Positions 7,801-57,964 of a DNA stretch of 64,000 nucleotides are shown here, piece by piece. This stretch comes from Antedon mediterranea (taxonomy: Eukaryota > Echinodermata > Crinoidea > Comatulida > Antedonidae). The position numbers and the translations under genes are program-made. Numbering within the stretch: the stretch's first letter is position 1; every line of letters begins with the position of its first letter. The notes under the pieces were generated by a model that searched no databases, had not been told where the DNA came from, and was given only the letters and a program-made list of their open reading frames with translations. The stretch lies in assembly GCF_964355755.1 (NCBI RefSeq), contig NC_092670.1:11283201-11347200 (forward strand), read 5' to 3'.

Positions 7801-10800
7801 ACGAAAAAAAAAATCGCGACCCGGCAACCCCTAAAAAGTTCTGTAAAAAGATTCATGTCAATTATTCATTGTGTTTATATTATTTTAGCAATGTACTTAG
7901 TTGCAAAGTACATCAAAGAGAAGACAGACACAGTTGTAGTATACGCTGGTGAAGGTGCTGACGAACTTTTCCAAGGATATCTTAATTTTCATATCGCTCC
8001 AAGCCCAGAAGAAGCAGACCAAGAGAGCCGTCGCCTACTTAACGATTTGTACTTGTATGATGTTCTAAGAAGTGACCGAATAACAGCAGCTCACGGGTTA
8101 GAATGGTTTAAGATTGAAATATTTACAATGTCTGCAAAATTAAAACTTAATTACTTCCAATATGGTTTTGTTAAAAGTTGTTAGCATTAATAATAATAGA
8201 TAATATTCATTCATCCATTTCCAGATACAAATAATATAATATGACAGAGATCTACGATTGAAAAACAAACAAAACAAGCACGAATGTGCAATACTCGGGG
8301 TACAGCGAAAGTAGCTGTAATGACGTCATAAGACCGGATGTAACGTCACATACACATCAATAACCGCGCTACCAAATACGGCTATACGGTACCATCTTCG
8401 AGACGTGATATGGCTGCATCCGGTTTGAAATTAAAAATCCGGCTCTATAGCTTTGAGGACATGTCCCTGTAGTATATTCATGCTAAATCTGAGCTCAATA
8501 CTACCACGAATAAGGGAGGAGTAGTACTTTATAAATCGCACTTTTTGCTCAATAGTGTCCAGATGGAAGAAGAAGAGGAAAAGATTAGAGAGTCCTAGAC
8601 TCAGGTACCCCGAGTAATAAAATGAGATATATATACTCTATATCATATTACGTATACAGTATATTTCACCATAAAGTTTAAGCAAAATGGTCTCGCCATG
8701 AGGGCTCGAACCGGGGACCTTCTGCGCGTTAAGCAGACTTGATAACCACTACACTACGAAACCTCTTACACCAAAAATGTGGGTTACACAAAGTTTTTTA
8801 ATCCATTTAAATTACAAATAAATTATTATGGTAATAAGCACAAAGCAAGATAAACATGTGTAAAAGTGATAATTACCGATTACACAAAATAAATATTTTA
8901 AACAAGCACGAATGTGCAATACTCGGGGTACAGCGAAAGAAGCTGTATACAGACGTATAAAGTTAGAAAGTTAAAGAAAAATAGGTTTCGCCAGGGCTCG
9001 AACCGGGACCTTCTGCGTGTTAAGCAGACTTGACAACCACTACACTACGAAACCTCTTACATTGAAATTGTGGGTTACAGAAAGTTTTTTAATCCATTTA
9101 AATTACAAATAAATGGTAATAAGCACAAAGCAAAATAAACATGTGTAAAAGTGATAATTACCGATTACACAAAATAAGTATTTAAAAAAAAAATAATAAG
9201 ATATACTGTGTATAATTATCATATTGCGTATACAGTACTTTTCACCATAAAGTTTAAAAAAAAAGGTTTAGGCCGGGCTCGAACCAGGTACCTTCTGCGT
9301 ATTGAGCAAACGTGATAACCACTACGCCAAGAAGCCGCATATAACCATATAACTACATAACGCTGTGGTGTGTGTCACACATTGTGGATTCTTAATTAAA
9401 CAAATTAATTAACAAAAAATAATAAAAATAAAATATACTCTGTATAATTATCATATTGCGTATACAGTACTTTTCACCATAAAGTTAAAAAAAAAGGTTT
9501 CGTCCGGGCTCGAATCAGGTACCTTCTGCGTGTTAAGCAAACGTGATAACCACTACGCCAAGAATCCGCATATAACCATATAACTACATAACGCTGTGGT
9601 GTGTGTCACACATTGTGGCTTCTTAATTAAACAAATTAATTAACAAAAAATTAAAAATCCGGCTCTATAGCTTTGAGGACATGTCCCTGTAGTATGTTCA
9701 TGCCAAATCCCAGCTCAATACTATAACGAATAAGGGAGGAGTAGTACTTTAAAAATCGCACTTTTTACTCAATAGTGTCCAGATGGAGGAAGAGAAGGAG
9801 AAAATGAGTAAGTACTAGACTCGGGTACCCCGAGTAAAAATGTAATAAACTCTCACATTATCGCATGAATCATAATGCAATGTTTGTAATTTGTGATCAC
9901 ATTGACGATAGGTGGTGGAAATCATTAAGCATTTTTAGTCGCGTGGAAGCGACTCTATAGTTCACTATGTCGGTCGGTCGGTCTGTCTGTCTGTCTGTCT
10001 GTCGGTCTGTCTGTCGGTCTGTCTGTCTGTCGGTCCGGTATCACTATGCGTTTTATCGCTTTATGACCTTATCTTGATATCAGTTTAATCTAGCTAAGTC
10101 AATTTTTCACAGAATATTCCTTATGGCCAGGAATCGATGTGGTTATGTTTTCACGTGCGCAATAAAAAATTACGCGGTCTACGCACGATTTAACGAAATC
10201 ACGTTTGTAATCATATCTTAACAACCATGAATCACAATTAAATAAAATTTGGTACTCATAAATTTCAGGGCATAAATCATCATATGGCAATACAATTACG
10301 TGCGTAGCGCATTTAACGCATGCGTAAATAAAATTTGGTACTCATAAATTTCAGGGCATAAATCATCATATGGCAATACAATTACGTGCGTAGCGCATTT
10401 AACGCATGCGTAAGCGCGCTTAAAATTTTCAAAATTTATTTTCGATGAAATAAGTGTACGTTTCAGGCAATTTTAAGCGTTTACAAAATTGCCATGAGTG
10501 CGCAGAATTTTGCGCGCGCACTGCGCGTTAAATGTTATTGCGCATTCTTCTTGCCCCATTTCTGTTTTCTTGACTTACTTTTCAACTCGAAATTACGTTA
10601 TACGAGCACGTCAAAAGTGACAGGCTACGCACGTGTAAATTAAAAAATATAAATGTTTTTAAACATTTCAACATTTTTAAACATGTTCAGTAATTTCGGT
10701 CAGTATAGTTCACTATGTCGGTCGGTCCGTCTGTCTGTCGGTCTGTCTGTCTGTCGGTCTGTTTGTCTGTCGGTCCGGTATCACTATGCATTGTAGCACG

Positions 10801-14160: not shown

Positions 14161-14513
14161 CAACTCCTACTTTATACTATAAAGTTTTGTTTTTTTTACC
14201 AGACCTAACCAAACATTCCAACATTTAAAAAAACCAATTTAAAAAGCATGTATATAGCATTTTCAGTTACCAGTTTTTGTTACGCTAATCTAAAAATAAT
14301 TTCATGGCGATTCATTAAATATTAACTAACTTAGAGTAAATCATCAATTTGATCAAAACCTACTCAATATTCTATTTAAACTATTATATACACAAGTGGC
14401 TTTACTACCCGTTTGCTGTCTCAAATAACATCAATATTAGTTTTTTTATGGTTATTGTTTATATTGAACTTAACAGTACATACATTATTTATCTGAATTT
14501 AAATTTCTCTTTA

Positions 14514-14887
14514 AGCCGATTTTCCACTAGGCGAATTTGTTCGCGCGAATCGAAAGCGTCATGCTATGCACATGCGTATTCGCGTTTCTGTCTGTCATAC
14601 TGCCTTCTTCGACGAATTCTAGTTCCTTTGATTTTTCGCTTCAGCGAAATTTACTCGTTCGAATTGTTTCTACTTTTTGCGAAGCGAAATTTTGCGCTAC
14701 CAATCAGAGCTCAGGAAATGAGCTATGACGCTTTCATGAGCACTCATGCGAATCGAAATGCTCATCAACCACGCGAGGAACATGAACGTCGCAGCTATTC
14801 GCTATGTAGTGGAAAGAGAGTAGGCGATTTTTTTCTCTTCGAAACGTTGGATTCGCGCGAACAAATTCGCCTAGTGGAAAATCAGCT
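14514..14887. mobile_element. MITE with TTA duplication and about 36-bp terminal inverted repeats (family C)
   Basis: Starts AGCCGATTTTCCACTAGGCG and ends with its near-exact inverse; TTA lies at 14511-14513 and 14888-14890. The ends (AGC...CCACTAG) resemble family B, but the interior (TTCGCGCGAATCG, GCGAAGCGAAAT) differs. The 192-codon frame across it is not a gene. Confidence 0.8.
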
Positions 14888-15081
14888 TTATTCAGGAAAT
14901 CATATCCGTAGGGAATGTCATTATTAATCATCTTAAAACCCAAATCGCAGATTGTAAGAGTTAAATTTATTTAAGCGACAAAAAAAAGTTTTTTTTTCAT
15001 TTTTAAAGAAGCTTCGATTCTACAATACAATTCTCGTTTACAGAAACGCACTATTACAGTAAGTTACTAAAATTAAAAAAG

Positions 15082-16857
15082 TTAAAAATAAAAAAATAAT
15101 TTCCATGCTTTCCAAGCACTCTTCTTACTCTTACCGAAAAATGAGGATGTAGTGTCACAACCTGAAAAAGCATGGAAAAGTGGAAGGGCGCATGCCATGC
15201 TTTCACCTAGATGTCTACACATGTTGTTGATGTTATAGTAACAGAAGTGATTACCAGTGCCGAATGCAACCCACAGTTTCAGTTCAGGAAATCGATGGCA
15301 AAGATTGAAAAATTGACCAATTAGAATGATGATAATGTCAGTATCCACAGTTCGCACCATGATTTGTCTTGCACCATGCTCCAACGAGTGCACCAAATGA
15401 ATTACAATCCTGGTATCTGCTTCTTCTTGTGTTGAGTTACTCATGTTGTTTCCTTTAAATATGACTGATGTACCCTTTGTTATGTACACATTCTTGTTGT
15501 CTGTAAATGATTGTTGTTCAACTAACTCAGACAAATATAGGAATAGTTCCTCTTTGTTTTTGGAATTAAGAAGGAAGTCTTTCCACTTGACAGGTGTCTT
15601 GGTTTTTGGTTCTACTTTTAAGCGTACACCTTTACCTCTCTTCTCTCTAGTAGATTCTTTAATGCTTGATGAAATATATCTATCCCACACAACATCTATG
15701 CGGCTGGTTGTCAATAATTCACGCTTAATAAAACCTAAAAATACTTGCTGGCCAAATTCAAGAAAGGTAGGCGCAGTGGGCAAAGTGTGTATAAGAGTTC
15801 CTCCGTCAAATATTTTTGCATCAAAGCGGTTTGGTGGTTCTTCTTTTTGACCGTCACAGTTAAGACATTTCAGTAACTCTGACTTTGTCCCAAAGCGAAG
15901 CTTACCATCGTCTGAGAGAGCAGGTGGATAAAATTGGTTCTCATGTGAGAAAAAAACAGCAAGGTCGCCGTCTCTTTGCTGGTTTGCAATGTATAATCGA
16001 GCAAACAGACTAATCTCATCGCGAGCAGCACTTAACTTATTATTTTTCTGTTTGCATTTAGGCTTTCTTGATTTCAGTAGTGCCAGTGAATTTTTCTTTA
16101 TGGAATCGTGGATTGACTTGCTTTTGTCTTCAAGTACTTCTTTCTTAAACGTATTGTAACGTGATTTTCCTATTTTCTCTACCGTTCGAACGGTGGTAAT
16201 AACCGACTTTTCTGCACAATATCTGGTGTTCAAAATCAGCAGCTCTGGACAGTCATCTTGAAACGGATTTCCAAATCCTCTGATTACTTCAATCAAACTC
16301 TTGCTTTGTTTTTGAAAGGTTAGCTGCGTTGAAAGGCCCTCTTCATGGTGATTGAAATTTACTTCAGGATCTTCTGGTCGCGTGTAACCCTCTTCAAACT
16401 CTGTTAAAAGCCGTGCCTGTTCTGGTCCACTAATCATCCATCTTTTGAATGCAGTAGGATTTTCAGTAAGGCCCACAGGTCCTCCTTTACCCTTAACCTT
16501 TGCATTATCCTGCTCATGTGCCTGATCTCTGGGGATACAGGAGAATCTGTTGTTATTCTTGTTAACAACCCAATTTTTGTAGATATCTTCCTTGATAGCA
16601 GATGGTAGTGCTTTCATGTCACGGATGTGAACACTTACCCAACGACTGTAATTCTGATGGTCAAATGCGAAAAACAGGTAGATAAGTGCTTCAAGGGCTT
16701 CTACAAAAAGTGGGAAGTTTCTTTCACGATGCGCTCGGATAAAAATAAGTATGAGGACTTCGGAATTTAGGACAATGTCCCAAAATTGAAAAGTAGGACT
16801 TTTATCAATCATGTCGAGTCGCCATCCTTCGAAGCTTGTATTCTCGTTACTGAACAT
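15082..16857 (-). CDS. Transposon-associated multicopy protein with FEN1/XPG-like nuclease signature (591 codons, truncated)
   Basis: An uninterrupted frame in a single exon. It resembles a highly repeated uncharacterised family of marine invertebrates and fish, with hallmarks FAFDHQNYSRW (63-73), DQAHEQDNAKVKG (111-123), VGLTENP, HAFSGCDTTSSFFGK (562-576). I also see the acid spacing of a PIN/FEN nuclease: DGG (351), WDRY (D392), EEADTR (E479, D481), VDTDI (D505, D507) and GCD (D568), like the FEN1 GCDY turn. The nuclease reading is inference. The frame stays open about 26 codons upstream (to near 16935) without an ATG, and the 3' end runs into AT-rich DNA straight after the GCD motif, so it seems cut at both ends. 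Host domestication is possible but unsupported. Confidence 0.75.
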   Translation of the reverse strand: MFSNENTSFEGWRLDMIDKSPTFQFWDIVLNSEVLILIFIRAHRERNFPLFVEALEALIYLFFAFDHQNYSRWVSVHIRDMKALPSAIKEDIYKNWVVNKNNNRFSCIPRDQAHEQDNAKVKGKGGPVGLTENPTAFKRWMISGPEQARLLTEFEEGYTRPEDPEVNFNHHEEGLSTQLTFQKQSKSLIEVIRGFGNPFQDDCPELLILNTRYCAEKSVITTVRTVEKIGKSRYNTFKKEVLEDKSKSIHDSIKKNSLALLKSRKPKCKQKNNKLSAARDEISLFARLYIANQQRDGDLAVFFSHENQFYPPALSDDGKLRFGTKSELLKCLNCDGQKEEPPNRFDAKIFDGGTLIHTLPTAPTFLEFGQQVFLGFIKRELLTTSRIDVVWDRYISSSIKESTREKRGKGVRLKVEPKTKTPVKWKDFLLNSKNKEELFLYLSELVEQQSFTDNKNVYITKGTSVIFKGNNMSNSTQEEADTRIVIHLVHSLEHGARQIMVRTVDTDIIIILIGQFFNLCHRFPELKLWVAFGTGNHFCYYNINNMCRHLGESMACALPLFHAFSGCDTTSSFFGKSKKSAWKAWKLFFYF

Positions 16858-16935
16858 TTCACTTTTCTCGTAAGCCTCACGCTGTAGCTTATGTAGTACA
16901 AGAGATGTTACTTGGTGGGCATGACTTCATAAACT

Positions 16936-19388
16936 TTTAGCCAATCAGAATGCCGGATTTTATGAATACTCATTTTGGAGGGAAATCTTTGTCTAGGTAA
17001 TACTATAGTAATTGATTGTATATAAAAGAGGTTCTATGGACCTTAAATAATGAAATCATTGTTATTATTAGTATTTATTATTCTCAAATAGAAACTATTA
17101 TAACAAATATTGTGATTTATTTTAACTGGTCTTTGGAACGTTAAAAAATAGATTATGTCGAAAAGGCACTGCTTCTCTATAACACTGAAGTTAGTTGTAG
17201 TGATATAAAACAAAATTTAAGTCAAAAGTTAATATAATTACTTCTGGTCAATTGACAAATTCAGTCATTACCTTAATTAATACAAAAATATATATTTTTG
17301 ACAATTTAAGCCCAATATTTTGATGTTATGCGCATTCGGTAACGAAATTTGAGGTTATCGGGTCAAAGGTCAATATTATGATTTCCAGTCACTTTTGGGA
17401 AAAATAGTTCGTTAGACCAAATACTAACATGTATATTGTGAATATTTTAAGACCAACCTCATGTTTCTACTGTCAGTAGTTATCGAGATATGACCATACT
17501 AGGGTCAAAGGTCACAATTCCGGAAATGATGATTCATGATGTTGTATTAGAGTGAATAGAAACATATGTGTTCTAAGCAATTTAACACTAAAATGAACTC
17601 TGTACCCCTACCGGTTACTAAGATATGGACCATCATTTTGTTTTGGCGGCCATTTTGAAAATACTCCAAATATGGTCATAAAATACATTTTTTTTCTTGG
17701 CTACAGTGATTTTTTTAATCTGTATGTCCAAGTGAACATATGTGCAAAATTTGAAAACTTTGTCATCCGTGTAACGTTTTTGACCATTTTTTCCCTTAAG
17801 GCACCCCACTATACAGATTACACACTTTTTCATCCTTCACAGGAAATTTACAAATGGCCGCAGTTCAATAATGAAGATATTGAAAATTTAACTAATAATT
17901 CATATTATAAAGGGGTTTAAGATTAGTCCTTTGTAGGATATAGACAAGTTTCTTCGTAAATTCTTGAAATGACAGGTAATTGTTATTGTTATACTCGCAA
18001 TACAATTATACTTGACATAAAAATTGTTTCAGACAAAGTTTTATCTTTCTCACCGTGCGCCTCATACCCAGTGAATCCCATCTAAAAACATGTTACTGCG
18101 CCGTCGAGTTTTCGTATAGGCCTATTTATACAATGTAAGCCTATATATTCATAGAAGAGAATAATAAAATATCGGTAACGACGATACAATACCTTTTATA
18201 TTATTATTGTATTTCAAAAGTTTTCAAGTGATGGTAAAATAGAAATATTCAATAGGCTTCCTAAAGTGAAATGGATGGATGAATGCGTTCATTCATTGCG
18301 CTATTCGTTAAGCATTAACAATCTAAAAGCTCAATAAGTCCAAGGTAGTATGCCTATTTCAATAGCAGACAGAGTGCCTATAATAATAGGTCAATGATTT
18401 TATCAAACGCATTCAATTGTGGACGACCTACAACGGTAAGTAATCAACAAAATAATTTAACCAAGTAAGTGATTAAGTAAGTTTTAGGTTGTTTTAATAT
18501 TGCCATCCTAGATTATTAGATAATCCCTGTTTTGATACGAATTTCAGTAAAGTCGTTTCTTCTGAAAATGCAGATGCATGCACGGAGCGACTTTGAAAAT
18601 GGTGGTTTGATAGATATTTTAATACTTTTTTCCGAATGGCAATTAGAACTCATTGGGGAGACCGTACCCACAAAGAACCCTCAGTGGCCAACTAATGTGC
18701 CATGGCACAATACAATCGACTATAGAATGTCATGCTGCTGACCGGATAGTTGAAACATTGAGAGTTATATCCAAACAGGTTTATAAATTATGATTTTGAT
18801 AATTGGGCTAATATGAATTGACACTTAATCCAACCAACTGTATGGATGTCGCCTTTCAAAGCCCCACCTTTCCATAACATGATTTTATGTGGACAAGAAG
18901 TGACACACAGTCAACATACTGAAGAGTCTGTGGTCAATCAATTTAATTATTGAGTTCACCAATCATAATCGATGGATTAATCGTTTATTCAATTCAATAT
19001 TTCTCCACACATACCGTATATTCAATTAAATTTCTTTTTATTTCGGAAATATCATCCAGATTAATAAACAGTAAAAAAAACTTGAAACTTAAGTATAGAA
19101 TGCTTCTCCATCTACAATACATTATGGAGCATATGTTTGCAAATTTTAAATTGATTATTCGAATTGTCGCTTGTCATTGGTGAACACGTTTGCGTTGCGT
19201 TGTGTCCTAGTAATGGGAACCAAGCTTGACAGCGATGCAGCAGAAAATAAATGTAACGGACTTCAATAAACCTATGTCTATTTAAATTAAGTCAATTGAA
19301 CAAAACTGACTATAGAGTTCACCTATCCATAACCTACTGAACAGTGAAAGCATACCACAGGTCAGTAATTCGAGTAATGATTTATATA
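16936..19388. other. Gene-free stretch, probably part old repeat
   Basis: 17330-17640 repeats the themes GGTCAAAGGTCA, TACTAAGATATGGACCATCA and GGCGGCCATTTTG, a style common in old transposon flanks, and may belong to the element carrying the 591-codon frame. No exon, RNA gene or clear repeat boundary seen; 17930-19388 looks unique. Confidence 0.35.
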
Positions 19389-19391
19389 TTA

Positions 19392-19740
19392 TGCTTGGTT
19401 TCCACTAGAGACGCAACACAAGGACGTAACGCAACGCAAGTGAATTGACAAGCGATGGATTATTCGAACGGTCGTTTGTCATTATAGTTAAGCGTGGTTC
19501 CCACTAGCGACGCAATGTAACGCAATCTACGCAACGTAAGAAAATGCCCTTACAATCATTGTGTTTTCCCCCGACTGCGTGAAATCAAACCTACGATGTT
19601 TGCAGCACTGTTGCGTCGTCGGTTGATTACGCAATACAGCACTTTGCGTCAATACACCGTTGCGTCCTAGTGGAAACCACGCTTCAACACGCTTGCGTTG
19701 CGTTTACGTCCTTGCGTTACGTTCCAGTGGAAACCAAGCT
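19392..19740. mobile_element. Family-B MITE split by a second MITE
   Basis: Outer ends TGCTTGGTTTCCACTAGAG and GGAAACCAAGCT are flanked by TTA at 19389-19391 and 19741-19743. The interior shows GGACGTAACGCAACGCAAG and its inverse. It is interrupted at 19491-19683 by another element with similar ends, so insertion order is readable: the outer element is older. Confidence 0.85.
19491..19683. mobile_element. MITE nested inside the previous MITE
   Basis: Ends AGCGTGGTTCCCACTAGCG and CCTAGTGGAAACCACGCT; flanks TTA (19488-19490) and TCA (19684-19686), one mismatch. The interior (TGCAGCACTGTTGCGTCGTC) differs from the host element, so this is a related but distinct subfamily. Confidence 0.8.
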
Positions 19741-20302
19741 TTATTAAGCGGCACGAATAGGTATCATAGCCATTAGTCATCAAAGCTGGTTTTCCCTGCT
19801 GATTACTACGGTACGGTACCGATGCTACAAATGTCCTCCACTTTTTGTGCAACCGATTTTTTGATCAAATTTATCATTTTTTTCAACATTTATATATTCA
19901 GCTTCTTGCGACAGCACCTTTATGATATAATGTTCTAAAAAATCAAATGACCCTTTTTATTGCAGCCTCCTTTCCTCCATTTCGATACGATTTCCAACGG
20001 CCTTTTGCAATTCCAGTTACTTAAATTCCGCGCGCATTCACGTTGTATTGTTAACCTTGCTCTGCTACCATTTTAAAATATAATAGTTAATTATATCTTA
20101 ACCGTAATATAGTAATATTAAATAACGATTATTTATTTACCTAACGTTTTGCCAACTATCAGTTGGCTTTCTCAAAGTGTAGTGACACGTATGTCACCGT
20201 TGACATCTAGATGACGGGTCAACACATTGGTCCACACTTGACTGAGTTTGTAACCGCCCTAATCTCAATGAACAAATGAACTATTCTTCTGAACAATCAC
20301 TA

Positions 20303-20447
20303 TGCTTGGTTCCCATTAGACGCAACGTAAGTGAGTTGACCAATCACAAACGATGGATTATTCGAACTGACGTTTGTCATTGGTCAACAACCTTAGGCCC
20401 TACATTGCGTTTACGTCCCTGCGTTGCGTCCTAGTGGGAACCAAGCT
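20303..20447. mobile_element. Family-B MITE just upstream of second asparagine synthetase gene
   Basis: Ends TGCTTGGTTCCCATTAGACG and CCTAGTGGGAACCAAGCT; the flanks CTA/TGA are one base off TTA each. It ends 65 bp before the ATG at 20513, mirroring the element at 4603-4757 before copy 1. Confidence 0.75.
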
Positions 20448-20474
20448 TGATTATTTTACAACTATTATTTAAGG

Positions 20475-31732: not shown

Positions 31733-31806
31733 CGACCAGCGTGGGAATCGAACCCACCACGTACGTGTTGTTAACACGACGCTCAGACGACTGAGCTAAC
31801 TGATCA
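31733..31806 (-). repeat. tRNA-like SINE head with nearly intact cloverleaf (AAC anticodon)
   Basis: On the minus strand: GATCAGT acceptor pairing with GCTGGTC (two G-U), D stem GCTC/GAGC, anticodon loop TTAACAA with four stem pairs, and perfect T stem GTGGG/CCCAC around TTCGATT. There is no T-run terminator, and SINE-like sequence continues to about 31560, so I read it as a tRNA-derived SINE rather than a tRNA gene. Confidence 0.5.
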
Positions 31807-49500: not shown

Positions 49501-52247
49501 TTTCCTCCATTTACCTCATGAATATTAGTTAAATTAAATACAATAACATGTAACCAGTATCATATGTTCAAAGACAGTTTTACGTTCAAAGACAGTATCA
49601 TACGTTCAAAGAGAGTTTTACGTTTAAAGACAGTATAATACATTCAAATACGTTCATAGACAGTATCATACGTTCAAAGACAGTATCATACGTTCAAACA
49701 CAGTTTTACGTTGAAAGACAGTATAATACATTCAAAGACAGTATCATACGTTCCAAGACAGTTCTACGTTTAAAGACAGTATAATACATTCAAAGACAGT
49801 ATAATACGTTCAAAGACAGTATCATACGTTCAAAGACAGTATCATACGTTCAAAGACAGTATCATACGTTCAAAGACAGTATCATACGTTCAAAGACAGT
49901 TTTACGTTTAAAGACAGTATAATACATTCAAAGACAGTATCATACGTTCAAAGACAGTATCATACGTTCAAAGACAGTTTTACATTCAAAGACAGTATCA
50001 TAAGTTCAAAGACAGTTTTACGTTAAAAGACAGTATAATACATTCAAAGACAGTATCATACGTTCTAAGACAGTATCATACTTTCAAAGACAGTATAATA
50101 TGTTCAAAGACAGTATCATACGTTCAAAGACAGTTTTACGTTTAAAGACAGTATAATACATTCAAAGACAGTATCATACGTTAAAAGACAGTATCATACG
50201 TTCAAAGACAGTTTTACGTTTAAAGACAGTATAATACATTCAAAGACAGTGTCATACTTTCAAAGACAGTATCATACTTTCAAAGACAGTATCATACTTT
50301 CAAAGACAGTATCATACTTTCAAAGACAGTATCATACTTTCAAAGACAGTATATATGTTCAAAGACAGTATATATGTTCAAAGACAGTATCATACTTTCA
50401 AAGACAGTATCATACTTTCAAAGACAGTATATATGTTTAAAGACAGGATGTTCAAAGACAGTATAACATGTTCAAAGACAGTATCAAACGTTGAAAGTTT
50501 GTAAACAATCCAACCATGGACCTATAAATTATGATCCGACACAAAATGTAAATTTGTTCTGTTTAATGGTTTCATGGTATGTTGTAATGAAATGGAAAAC
50601 TCATCATAACTAATACGTCATCCACAATTATGTGTTTTTCAGATTTCCTATTTTATGAATTCTAAAGAAATTTAAACCATTAGGATATGGTTTCTATTAA
50701 TAATCTAAAATACATTCAAATATTTTCATTGATTTAAATTTTCGACACTAATTACTTTTCAATTAAATTGGTGGTTTCATAAAAACGTTTAATGATTTTG
50801 GCAAATAAAACAAAAATATCAAACGACACAAAAAGAAATGTTTGCGTGGCCTCTATAAAGGCTTACTTTTGTGAAAGAAAAGAAAAGAAAGAGGAAGGGG
50901 AAGTTAAAATTACAAGATTCACTTCTTTAACAAAACATTAAACATAAAGAGTAAATTTTAGTGTCAATGCAATGAACATTAAACATTAAGAGTTAATTTT
51001 AGTGTAAAAAATACACTGAACAATTAAACATAAAGAGTGAATTTTAGTGTAAAATACACTGAACATTAAACATAAAGAGTGAATTATAGTGTAAAATGCA
51101 CTGAACATTAAAATGCTGTTTAAACACACTCAGAGTAGATGCAATTATACTTTTTAAACTTCAGTGTGATTTTGTTAACTACAGTATATTGACATAAGAG
51201 TACTGTATTTTCGATCAAGAATTTAAGGGAATACTCCAACATTGACAAATTTACAAGTTAAAAGGACCTTCCTCTACCGATCATCAAAACTCTAGAATAA
51301 CCTCCTTATTTATGCCAAAATTACCAATTAATGAATTTAGAAGTATTTATAAGCAATTTTTAGTATTTAAAGTAACTTGATTGATTGAGTATCACATATT
51401 AGAAGCTGACATAGAAATGAAATAACCTTGGCTTTGAATTACAGTATTAACACTTACCTCCAATTTCTTTTCATATACATTAATGTCTTCTGAAGATGTA
51501 TTAAGAACCTCTAACTCCTCCTGGAATTTAAATAAAAACTCATTTACGATCAAGAATTTATGGGAATTATATACAAATGTTTTATGTAACAAAGCAGTTG
51601 ATATATTGTATAATAAACGAATATCAAAATATGTAAATAAAATTAACTTACAGTAAAACACTATTCTACAGTAATAACAAATAAACTGAACAATTAGGCA
51701 TAGGCCTACTACATATATTATAGACACAAAGGAGATGAGATGTTTTTGGATGGACATTTACTATATTTATTTGTTTTTTTTAAATACTTATTACGGTACA
51801 GAGAATTAGTTGGCTATTATAACAGATTATAAAACGTTGTCTGAATAAAACTCTAGCTGGCCTCTAAAGCTTGGTTCCCACTAGAACGTAACGCAAGGAC
51901 GTAAACGCAACGCAAGCGTTTTAACCAATGACAAGCGAAGTTATAGACAGTTAGCAATCACAAGCGAATAAGCCATCGCTTGTGATTGGTCAATTCACTT
52001 GCGTTGCGTTACGTCCTTGTGTTGCGTCGCTAGTGGGAACCACGCTTAAAGTAAAGCACCAACAATGCCCATCACAAAACCAAAGTCCACTAAAATATGC
52101 AAAACAGTCTCATTGACATTATACACAGCTGCCCTGGTGATGGCTAACAGGGCTAAAAACATACTTAAGTTTTAGCCTACGACTATATGTTAAAACACAT
52201 ACCTGAATTCTTGGGTCCAGTTCTTCGCAGTCCATTTCGGTGGTCAT
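43529..52247 (-). CDS. SH3BP5: SH3BP5-like protein (Rab11 GEF family), six exons found, expected third exon missing
   Basis: SH3-binding protein 5 (Sab/REI-1) family: coiled-coil guanine exchange factors for Rab11, also known from JNK docking at mitochondria. Exons, 5' to 3': 52247-52203 (MTTEMDCEELDPRIQ), 51520-51458, 48042-47875, 46554-46424, 46172-45910, 43899-43529; 1041 bases in frame, 346 aa, all GT-AG. Family hallmarks: DPRIQ, ETIALAEE, EFDSALQEMLNHAT, KSRIYYEQK, RLEQISEEIHEKR, LPLGPREAGVG, and an acidic, Ser-rich tail. The roughly 47 residues that in human SH3BP5 link the second exon to AQKAT (a helix with KKIG and KPYWEAR) are not found between 48042 and 51458. The flanking junction is phase 0, so skipping keeps frame. 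The first intron carries a MITE and the second a 20-bp minisatellite. SH3BP5L is the alternative vertebrate name. Confidence 0.9.
47294..47430. mobile_element. Family-E MITE in SH3BP5-like intron
   Basis: Ends with TTGATAGTGTAGACAGAGCT followed by TTA; the interior has GACATGATGATGTCATATCA. The left end (TAGACTTGATGTGACAAAA) is diverged. Confidence 0.65.
49565..50493. repeat. 20-bp minisatellite, about 45 units, in SH3BP5-like intron 2
   Basis: The unit is close to TCAAAGACAGTATCATACGT, with variants TTTTACGT, ATAATACAT and ATATATGT in blocks. The variants recur in an ordered higher pattern (roughly every 100-120 bp at first), which suggests duplication of multi-unit blocks. No spacers, so not a CRISPR array. 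Open frames over it (FKDSIILSK-type) are artefacts. Confidence 0.95.
50935..51112. repeat. Tandem repeat, about 45-50-bp units, four copies
   Basis: AACATTAAACATAAAGAGT, GAATTTTAGTGTAAAA and a CACTG word recur four times in order. Same intron as the 20-bp minisatellite. Confidence 0.75.
51868..52046. mobile_element. Intact family-B MITE in SH3BP5-like intron 1
   Basis: Ends AGCTTGGTTCCCACTAGAAC and CTAGTGGGAACCACGCT; TAA at 51865-51867 and 52047-52049. The best complete copy of the family here (179 bp), nearly a full palindrome. Confidence 0.9.
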
Positions 52248-55460: not shown

Positions 55461-56584
55461 TTAACATTATCACACAACTTGTAGAGAGCTCGGAACTCCC
55501 GGGAGTAATCTCTAAGTTTTATAATAATACCTCTTTTTAGTCCATGCTTACACAGCCTGAAAATACAATAATGTGGTGTAGGCCTACTTATCATTAGTCA
55601 GCGTTGGCCATAAAAAAGCAATACAAAAGCTGTGACAACTATATTAAATTGTTGTCTCAGACAAAAGGCAATTCAAACTGTTATTGAAGTGTGAATCTGA
55701 ACACTGTGTTTATATCGTTTGATCTGGGATGTTGATTTCATTTTCAATATATTGCGAAATTCGAAATGTCCTAAACAATAGCCTAGTTACAGAATAGGTT
55801 ATACTTTCTATTTTATGACGTTGTACCACTGTACCAGGTATATGGTAGGTTGCAGTGTAAACTATATGGTGGCATAATCAAATACAATGCTATGTTTTCT
55901 CATGTATAAACATAAACATAATTTGTGGTCTATAAATTAACCATTAATTGTTTTTATCGTGGGAAATACACGCATGCCCAAATTAGTACAGTTAGGCCCC
56001 ATGTAGCGTTTTTATATTTAGCAGCAATTCGTCGATTGCGTACATAGGTCATAAACACCTGTATTACAATGCAATATTGAATAAACAACAAACAGCTAAA
56101 TATACAAAGAAAACAATTGAAAGGTAAGTCACTGTTGAGAGAGCATGTATAATTGGGGAATTCCCAGTCCTTGGAATTTCTAGTTTCTATTGCTTCTTAC
56201 ATAAAACTTTAGAAATCTGTACATACGGGTAATTCTTATTATCCAGGATATTATAACTAGGAAATACTGCAACGGGTAGCCCCTGAAACTCTAGTGAAGT
56301 ATTAATAGCTGAGGTTTCGTCAAACTCATCTATAATTATAATGGTACGTCACACTCTGGTTTTGATATGTTTTATTTGACAGTAATTACTATACGGGTTC
56401 ATTCAGTGATTTAAAAGCAACTATAAACAGTTTAGTTACGGTACAAGCGAGTATTCACTTTGAAACTAATTGTGTACAAGAATTTAGAGTAAAGTTAAAT
56501 ACTTTAAAATCAGAGCGATTTTAAAAATAGAAAAAACCATTTGAAGAAAACAGGTGGAGTGGCGATATTTTTACGGCTTTCAAA

Positions 56585-57964
56585 ATGATTTTGTTTATAG
56601 ATATTTCGCAAAAACAATTAGTACACATACTGATGTTGTTTTTATATCATTACTCAACCAATTATTCGTCGGTCAGTGCTGTGTCCTGTTCAAGTAAGGA
56701 CTCGCACACCAACTCTATAACGTGTACCGCTAGTGGAATCAACATAGAATGCAGACAGTGCGCACACACGGATGGCCAGCACCATACAGTAGATTGTATA
56801 AATCGACAATTTTCTGAAATTCCACGATGTAACACAGAAGGTGTAGAAAATTTAAATCTAAGAAAAAATAGGATCGAGCAATTAAATGATGATTTCGAGG
56901 AATATGTTAATTTGGAAACACTTTACCTTGAAGAAAACGAGTTGACTGAAATCAAACCGGCGGCGTTCCATAAACTGACTGTTCTGAACGATTTGAGGTT
57001 AAATAAAAACGTCATAGAAATTCTGCACGAAGAAGCGTTCGAAGGTTTAAACGAATTAGAAATCATGTATCTATCGTCCAATAAGTTAAAATCCATTCCG
57101 GCTTCAACGTTCCACAATCTTCCAAAGTTAAAAAAACTGTTTATTGGTAACAACCTGTTGTCGTCTTTACCAAACGATGTATTTCACGGTTCAATGATTA
57201 CTCACCTGGATTTATCACATAATTTCCTTACAGGTGTTCATAGTGAAATGTTTAAAGACCTTTCAGATTTGGAAAGTCTTGTTTTAAGAAACAATAACTT
57301 GACAGAATTTCCTGAAATCGCGCTTGAGTTCATGCCTAAAATGACTAGGTTTAATTTAGCGGAAAATCAATTTGATTGTAACTGCCAAAGTGATGTTATA
57401 AACTTGTCAAGAAAGATGAAACAGCATTCTAGATGGACTCCACCAACTTGTCTAAATGGAATGAACTTTTTAGAATTGGAGCAAGACTGCCCAAGAGAAA
57501 ACGCACGTACAAAACAGTACACAACATCCCACGTAACAGACGCTATAAACGCAAAAAGTAGGCCTATTGATAGAGCAAATGAAATGGCTAATTATGAACT
57601 TTATATCGTTATTCTCCTTTGTTTTATTGTATTATTTTGCGCCGTGTGGGCTACGCATTTATTAGTTAAGCGTTACAACCGGGGCAATATTAATTCATCC
57701 ACACAGAACACCAGTAGGCCTAACGCACAAAACCATGACATAGACACCATCTCTTCACGGGTGTCATCGCCCGACAGTCAACAGAACAGTGCAGATGCCA
57801 GGCCCGTTGATGCCAATCAAAATAATATAGTTTTGTCTTGTCAGGTGAGTGATGGAGTTGGCATGGCAAGTGTAACTGTACAAAGAAACTTCAACATATC
57901 ATTGACAGACATTGAAGAGGGTAGGTCAAGACTTTCCCCGCATAATATCAAGACGTATGTGTAA
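56585..57964 (+). CDS. Intronless leucine-rich-repeat single-pass membrane protein, 459 aa
   Basis: Probable cell-surface adhesion or signalling receptor. Order: hydrophobic N-terminus (about 10-35, signal peptide or anchor, with HILMLFLYHY), Cys-rich LRRNT (Cys 47, 56, 59, 71, 82), about seven 24-residue LRRs (86-262; for example LETLYLEENELTEI, LEIMYLSSNKLKSI, MTHLDLSHNFLTG with I for M), an LRRCT cap with CNC at 265-267 and Cys 289 and 302, a stalk, one membrane helix (about 339-361), then a cytoplasmic tail of about 97 residues rich in Ser/Asn. The last residues KTYV fit a class I PDZ ligand (T at -2, V at 0). No TIR, Ig or kinase domain. Plan resembles AMIGO/LRRTM-like or orphan LRR receptors; no specific orthologue is claimed. 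The first ATG is used; there is another Met at 17. Confidence 0.85.
   Translation: MILFIDISQKQLVHILMLFLYHYSTNYSSVSAVSCSSKDSHTNSITCTASGINIECRQCAHTDGQHHTVDCINRQFSEIPRCNTEGVENLNLRKNRIEQLNDDFEEYVNLETLYLEENELTEIKPAAFHKLTVLNDLRLNKNVIEILHEEAFEGLNELEIMYLSSNKLKSIPASTFHNLPKLKKLFIGNNLLSSLPNDVFHGSMITHLDLSHNFLTGVHSEMFKDLSDLESLVLRNNNLTEFPEIALEFMPKMTRFNLAENQFDCNCQSDVINLSRKMKQHSRWTPPTCLNGMNFLELEQDCPRENARTKQYTTSHVTDAINAKSRPIDRANEMANYELYIVILLCFIVLFCAVWATHLLVKRYNRGNINSSTQNTSRPNAQNHDIDTISSRVSSPDSQQNSADARPVDANQNNIVLSCQVSDGVGMASVTVQRNFNISLTDIEEGRSRLSPHNIKTYV

Follow-up and report, generated by a model that had tools for sequence, protein, structure and literature searches.

The locus and the truncated copy

The window, a stretch of 64,000 nucleotides of Antedon mediterranea DNA, carries on its minus strand an open frame whose Met-started part runs from 16857 to 15085 and encodes 591 amino acids. 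The frame stays open upstream to 16926 (ORF 15082–16926). The earlier note had described this frame without naming its strand; the frame is present, as a fragment that lacks both ends. Some of the related frames in the genome are open for 1,250–1,555 amino acids, and the window ORF covers only part of a transposon protein that is far larger. One relative, L031, is 98% identical to the window copy, lies on another chromosome-size contig and spans about 6.1 kb. Compared with L031, the window copy lacks 1.8 kb (5058–6841 of L031) at the internal deletion junction. The counterparts of both putative transposase aspartates, D341 and D552 in the numbering of the relative L048, fall in this deleted segment. 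The window copy is a fossil that cannot transpose, because one inverted repeat, the 3' end of the gene and the 1.8 kb with the two putative aspartates are lost. That its frame is still open presumably reflects the young age of the copy, which is suggested by 99.5% identity to L031 over 1.8 kb. All features are listed in Table 1.

Table 1. Features of the transposon copy in the window. Residue numbers refer to the 591-residue window protein.
Feature	Position	Strand	Basis or remark
Open frame of 591 aa, remnant of an AcademX-type transposase-nuclease (very probable)	15085..16857	-	ORF and genome matches
C-terminal part of DUF6589-like transposase domain	16258..16809	-	residues about 17-200
FEN/XPG-like nuclease core	15103..15831	-	residues 343-585
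D351 (FEN1 D34 position)	15805..15807	-	order and spacing only; profile alignment begins after D351
D392 (FEN1 D86)	15682..15684	-	alignment
K400 (FEN1 K93 position)	15658..15660	-	conservation, spacing
R407 (FEN1 R100 position)	15637..15639	-	conservation, spacing
E479-A-D481 (FEN1 E158/E160, EXO1 E150/D152)	15415..15423	-	alignment
D505-T-D507 (FEN1 D179/D181)	15337..15345	-	alignment
G566-C567-D568 (FEN1 D233, EXO1 SGCD225), then TTSSFFGKSKKSAW	15154..15162	-	alignment
3' truncation point	15094		gene 3' end and second inverted repeat lost beyond
Internal deletion junction	16922..16926		comparison with L031
5'-side terminal inverted repeat	17194..17811	-	outer end 5'-TAGTGGGGTGCC at 17811; sole remaining repeat
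TAC, remaining half of presumed 3-bp target-site duplication	17812..17814	+	inferred from other copies; partner lost

Several other features are found in the window. A MITE-like element at 14512–14888, whose inverted repeats measure 42 bp (95%) and whose flanks are apparently a 3-bp TTA, adjoins the truncation point of the transposon, and repeats related to it with AGTGGGAACCAAGCTT ends occupy 19200–20450. Two tRNA-Val(AAC) genes lie on the minus strand (8983–9054 and 31733–31805). On the plus strand, a frame of 477 amino acids at 56531–57964 contains leucine-rich repeats along with a likely transmembrane segment; it is probably an LRR receptor-type gene. A minisatellite at 49555–50497 consists of about 49 copies of the 20-bp unit CAGTATCATACGTTCAAAGA.

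Inverted repeats, target sites and family size

The intact relatives carry long terminal inverted repeats (TIRs, 607–870 bp) around one long protein, in elements of 6 to 7 kb. In L031 the TIRs are 607 bp long at 99.5% identity, in L032 and L033 they reach about 770 bp and in L036 and L038 about 870 bp. The TIRs of these last four copies hold internal repeated blocks, hence their lengths vary between copies. In three families, the outer ends read TAGTG or TAGTC. Two forms of the repeat end occur in the window's own family (L031, L070–L085), one of them about 10 bp shorter (TAGTGGGGTGCCTTAGGGTCAAAAACG), and they are often found at opposite ends of one element.

An 80-bp probe from the window copy's own repeat end finds 34 genomic places. 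For eight further copies of the window family both ends were cut out, and every one of them shows a 3-bp target duplication (TAA, CAA, TAT, TAA, TAC, TGG, ATA and TAG) and none a 4-bp duplication. Inspection by eye gives 3-bp duplications for L031 (ATT), L032 (CTA), L036 (TTT) and L035 (CTA), and no clear duplication was seen by eye in L034, L037 and L040. Including L031, the window's own family thus has a 3-bp duplication in nine out of nine copies.

The protein had been called multicopy from its sequence, and the genome bears this out with about a hundred matches: in 354 Mb there are 97 to the whole window protein and 101 to the nuclease part of a relative. Leaving aside the window copy itself, the matches share 25–98% identity with the query that found them. 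Between subfamilies, dN amounts to 0.42–0.62 with saturated dS, from which it follows that the protein was kept under long-term purifying selection. For near-identical copies dN/dS lies at 0.4–0.7, a value resting on few changes and uninformative. No relatives were found in IMG/VR or in the phage and plasmid collections. Two relatives, L048 and L049, reside in GTDB contigs, one assigned to a planctomycete MAG and the other to a mussel gill symbiont; they are probably animal-type Academ proteins that entered GTDB prokaryote genomes as eukaryotic contamination.

The predicted nuclease domain

The earlier note had proposed a FEN1/XPG-type nuclease from a series of acidic residues (D351, D392, E479/D481, D505/D507 and a GCD turn at 566–568), all of which are numbered correctly. 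For comparison, FEN1 residues D34, D86, K93, R100, E158, E160, D179, D181 and D233 were taken from sequences checked against PDB entries. Among 25 diverse members of the family, D351 is present in 17 of 17 sequences that cover the column, D392 in 21 of 21, D568 in 21 of 22, and E479, D481, D505 and D507 in 24 of 24 each. All seven acids are thus at least 95% conserved, and they are the only acidic columns to reach this level. K400 (21/21) and R407 (20/21 of the members covering the column) are similarly constant and follow the second aspartate at +8 and +15, compared with +7 and +14 in FEN1. The claim of a usual order and spacing could be put in numbers: the FEN-type spacing signature occurs in 16 of the 16 members covering the whole stretch versus 13 of 38,000 shuffled sequences.

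These counts bear on the reading that the frame is a host gene, or a degenerate domain without enzymatic activity in which the acids are placed by chance or composition. The window copy is indeed truncated and dead. However, copies flanked by TIRs and target-site duplications already contradict a host gene, and an accidental set of acids is at odds both with their invariance at 21–50% identity to the window copy and with the rarity of the signature in shuffled sequences. We regard this reading as extremely unlikely.

Used as a single query against PDB and Pfam, the window protein returned nothing usable, and Pfam XPG_N and XPG_I are matched by no family member. With profiles, Exonuclease 1 becomes the top match among 177,635 PDB sequences, and its E-value improves from 0.083 with 10 members to 0.0092 with 25. 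Such a gain with profile depth is the pattern expected for true homology. The match sets EXO1 SGCDYLSSLRGIG on window SGCDTTSSFFGKS and is collinear with the FEN1 active site. Alignment with hhalign against a FEN1/EXO1 set gives P of 0.00095 and 0.0016 at a probability of 16–22%, and it pairs, unprompted, D392, E479/D481, D505/D507 and D568 with FEN1 D86, E158/E160, D179/D181 and D233, six of the seven acids. The seventh, D351, precedes the aligned stretch. The real hhalign score of 34.9 exceeds the maximum of column-shuffled decoys (26.3), whereas permuting the columns in blocks of 15 gives decoys that score up to 37.3. The score alone is therefore no proof, and much of it comes from local motifs; support for their order comes from the alignments and the spacing test.

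Structure prediction with AlphaFold yielded models of low confidence, with a mean pLDDT of 39.5 for L048 plus three rows and of 46.2 for the window core plus two rows. Foldseek and VIA-align matches on the low-confidence window-core model (Z no higher than 5.3; among them carbonic anhydrase and gyrase) were uninformative and were left unused; no FEN chain is among the matches listed for this model.

PIN-like domains have the first aspartate and the D-x-D pair in common. These two features would also suit another PIN-like or carboxylate-based nuclease outside the FEN/XPG branch, of NYN, XRN or RNase H type, and a viral fold search on a low-confidence model lists one NYN and two 5'-3' exonuclease proteins amid noise. 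The E-x-D pair, in contrast, is a feature of FEN/XPG, the lysine and arginine after the second aspartate keep the 7-residue spacing of FEN1 K93/R100, GCD is followed by SSxxGKxK as in EXO1, and EXO1 ranks first in the PDB search. A nuclease from outside the branch is therefore unlikely. With the DNA-repair 5' nucleases FEN1, EXO1 and XPG (RAD2) the family shares the order and rough spacing of the seven metal-binding acids, the equivalents of K93 and R100, and the GCD with its glycine-lysine turn. It differs in that the similarity is barely detectable (E 0.009), the N-terminal MGIxGL motif is not recognisable, the interval from D392 to E479 is longer and the nuclease is fused to a transposase. 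The proposal of a FEN1/XPG-type nuclease is supported at the level of sequence, through the invariant acids, lysine and arginine and the collinear EXO1/FEN1 profile match, which argue well for a predicted metal-dependent nuclease of the FEN/XPG branch.

The putative transposase core and the C-terminal tail

Upstream of the nuclease, the full-length alignment contains a set of residues in the DUF6589 region that are invariant or nearly so: D341 (in DNxD), D552, H581, D795, E799 and N803 in L048 numbering. D341, D552 and E799 may form the DDE triad of a transposase core, and H581 is a further candidate catalytic residue. In the window copy, the putative third acid is retained as E115 in DQAHEQ (codon 16515–16513). 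Pfam DUF6589, which carries the annotation "unknown function", spans the transposase core in the family proteins, and its model leaves out the nuclease part; it passes the curated cut-off in one member, L039 (28.3 versus 27 bits). Many members end in a tail with eight cysteines, and the tail profile matches the CXC domain of LIN54 with an E-value of 0.013. The intact protein of about 1,500 amino acids would accordingly be built from N-terminal Cys motifs, a DUF6589-like core, a FEN1/EXO1/XPG-type two-metal nuclease and, often, a putative DNA-binding Cys8 CXC tail of tesmin/LIN54 type.

Probable assignment to AcademX

AcademX transposons are described as encoding a nuclease and producing target-site duplications of 3 or 4 bp, whereas AcademH transposons encode a helicase and their duplications measure 9 or 10 bp (PMC10045372). 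The mean length of Academ elements is 5,565 bp (PMC10294476). In the six long frames scanned with Pfam, and likewise in L048, no helicase domain was detected. With AcademX the family has in common the TIRs, the 3-bp duplication (3–4 bp in AcademX), the single long transposase-nuclease protein without helicase and the size of 6–7 kb. No difference is known beyond the truncation of the window copy, the comparison being one of described anatomy. AcademH belongs to the same superfamily according to the literature, while its helicase and its 9–10 bp duplication are not seen in this family.

The likeness to AcademX by description, together with a Pfam scan without any Academ-named match, would also allow an undescribed superfamily of DNA transposons, distinct from Academ, that likewise carries a FEN/XPG-like domain. 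The nuclease, the 3-bp duplication, the length and the lack of a helicase agree with AcademX, and we judge a new superfamily to be very unlikely. Very probably, the feature is the defective remnant of an AcademX DNA transposon whose protein joins a DUF6589-like transposase core to a FEN1/EXO1/XPG-type nuclease.

In the work of Kapitonov and Jurka in 2010 and of Kojima in 2020, the AcademX nuclease was reportedly named XPG. The earlier note had expected the nuclease to offer a function for an orphan family. This is not supported, as the anatomy is that of AcademX, for which a nuclease was already reported (PMC10045372). The FEN-type reading is correct in its general form, and in that form it was in the literature before. 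The mapping of individual residues and the connection with DUF6589 may be new; in the literature searched we found no mention of DUF6589.

Implications for transposition

In transposition, the transposase core would cut and join DNA. The second nuclease might process a branched or flapped intermediate, by a second-strand cut or by removal of a 5' flap, at the ends of the element or at the staggered target gap. It might also be tied to the length of the target-site duplication, a link suggested as well in PMC10045372. We put forward tentatively, as possible and still somewhat doubtful, that AcademX transposition uses a single chain uniting a DDE core with a FEN-type flap nuclease, that the flap nuclease contributes to setting the 3-bp stagger, and that DUF6589 is the DDE core of Academ transposases.

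Through this assignment, a large number of animal proteins that usually lack annotation become connected with an established transposon superfamily. Residues for mutation in a nuclease assay are now named, and Pfam DUF6589 gains a testable function.
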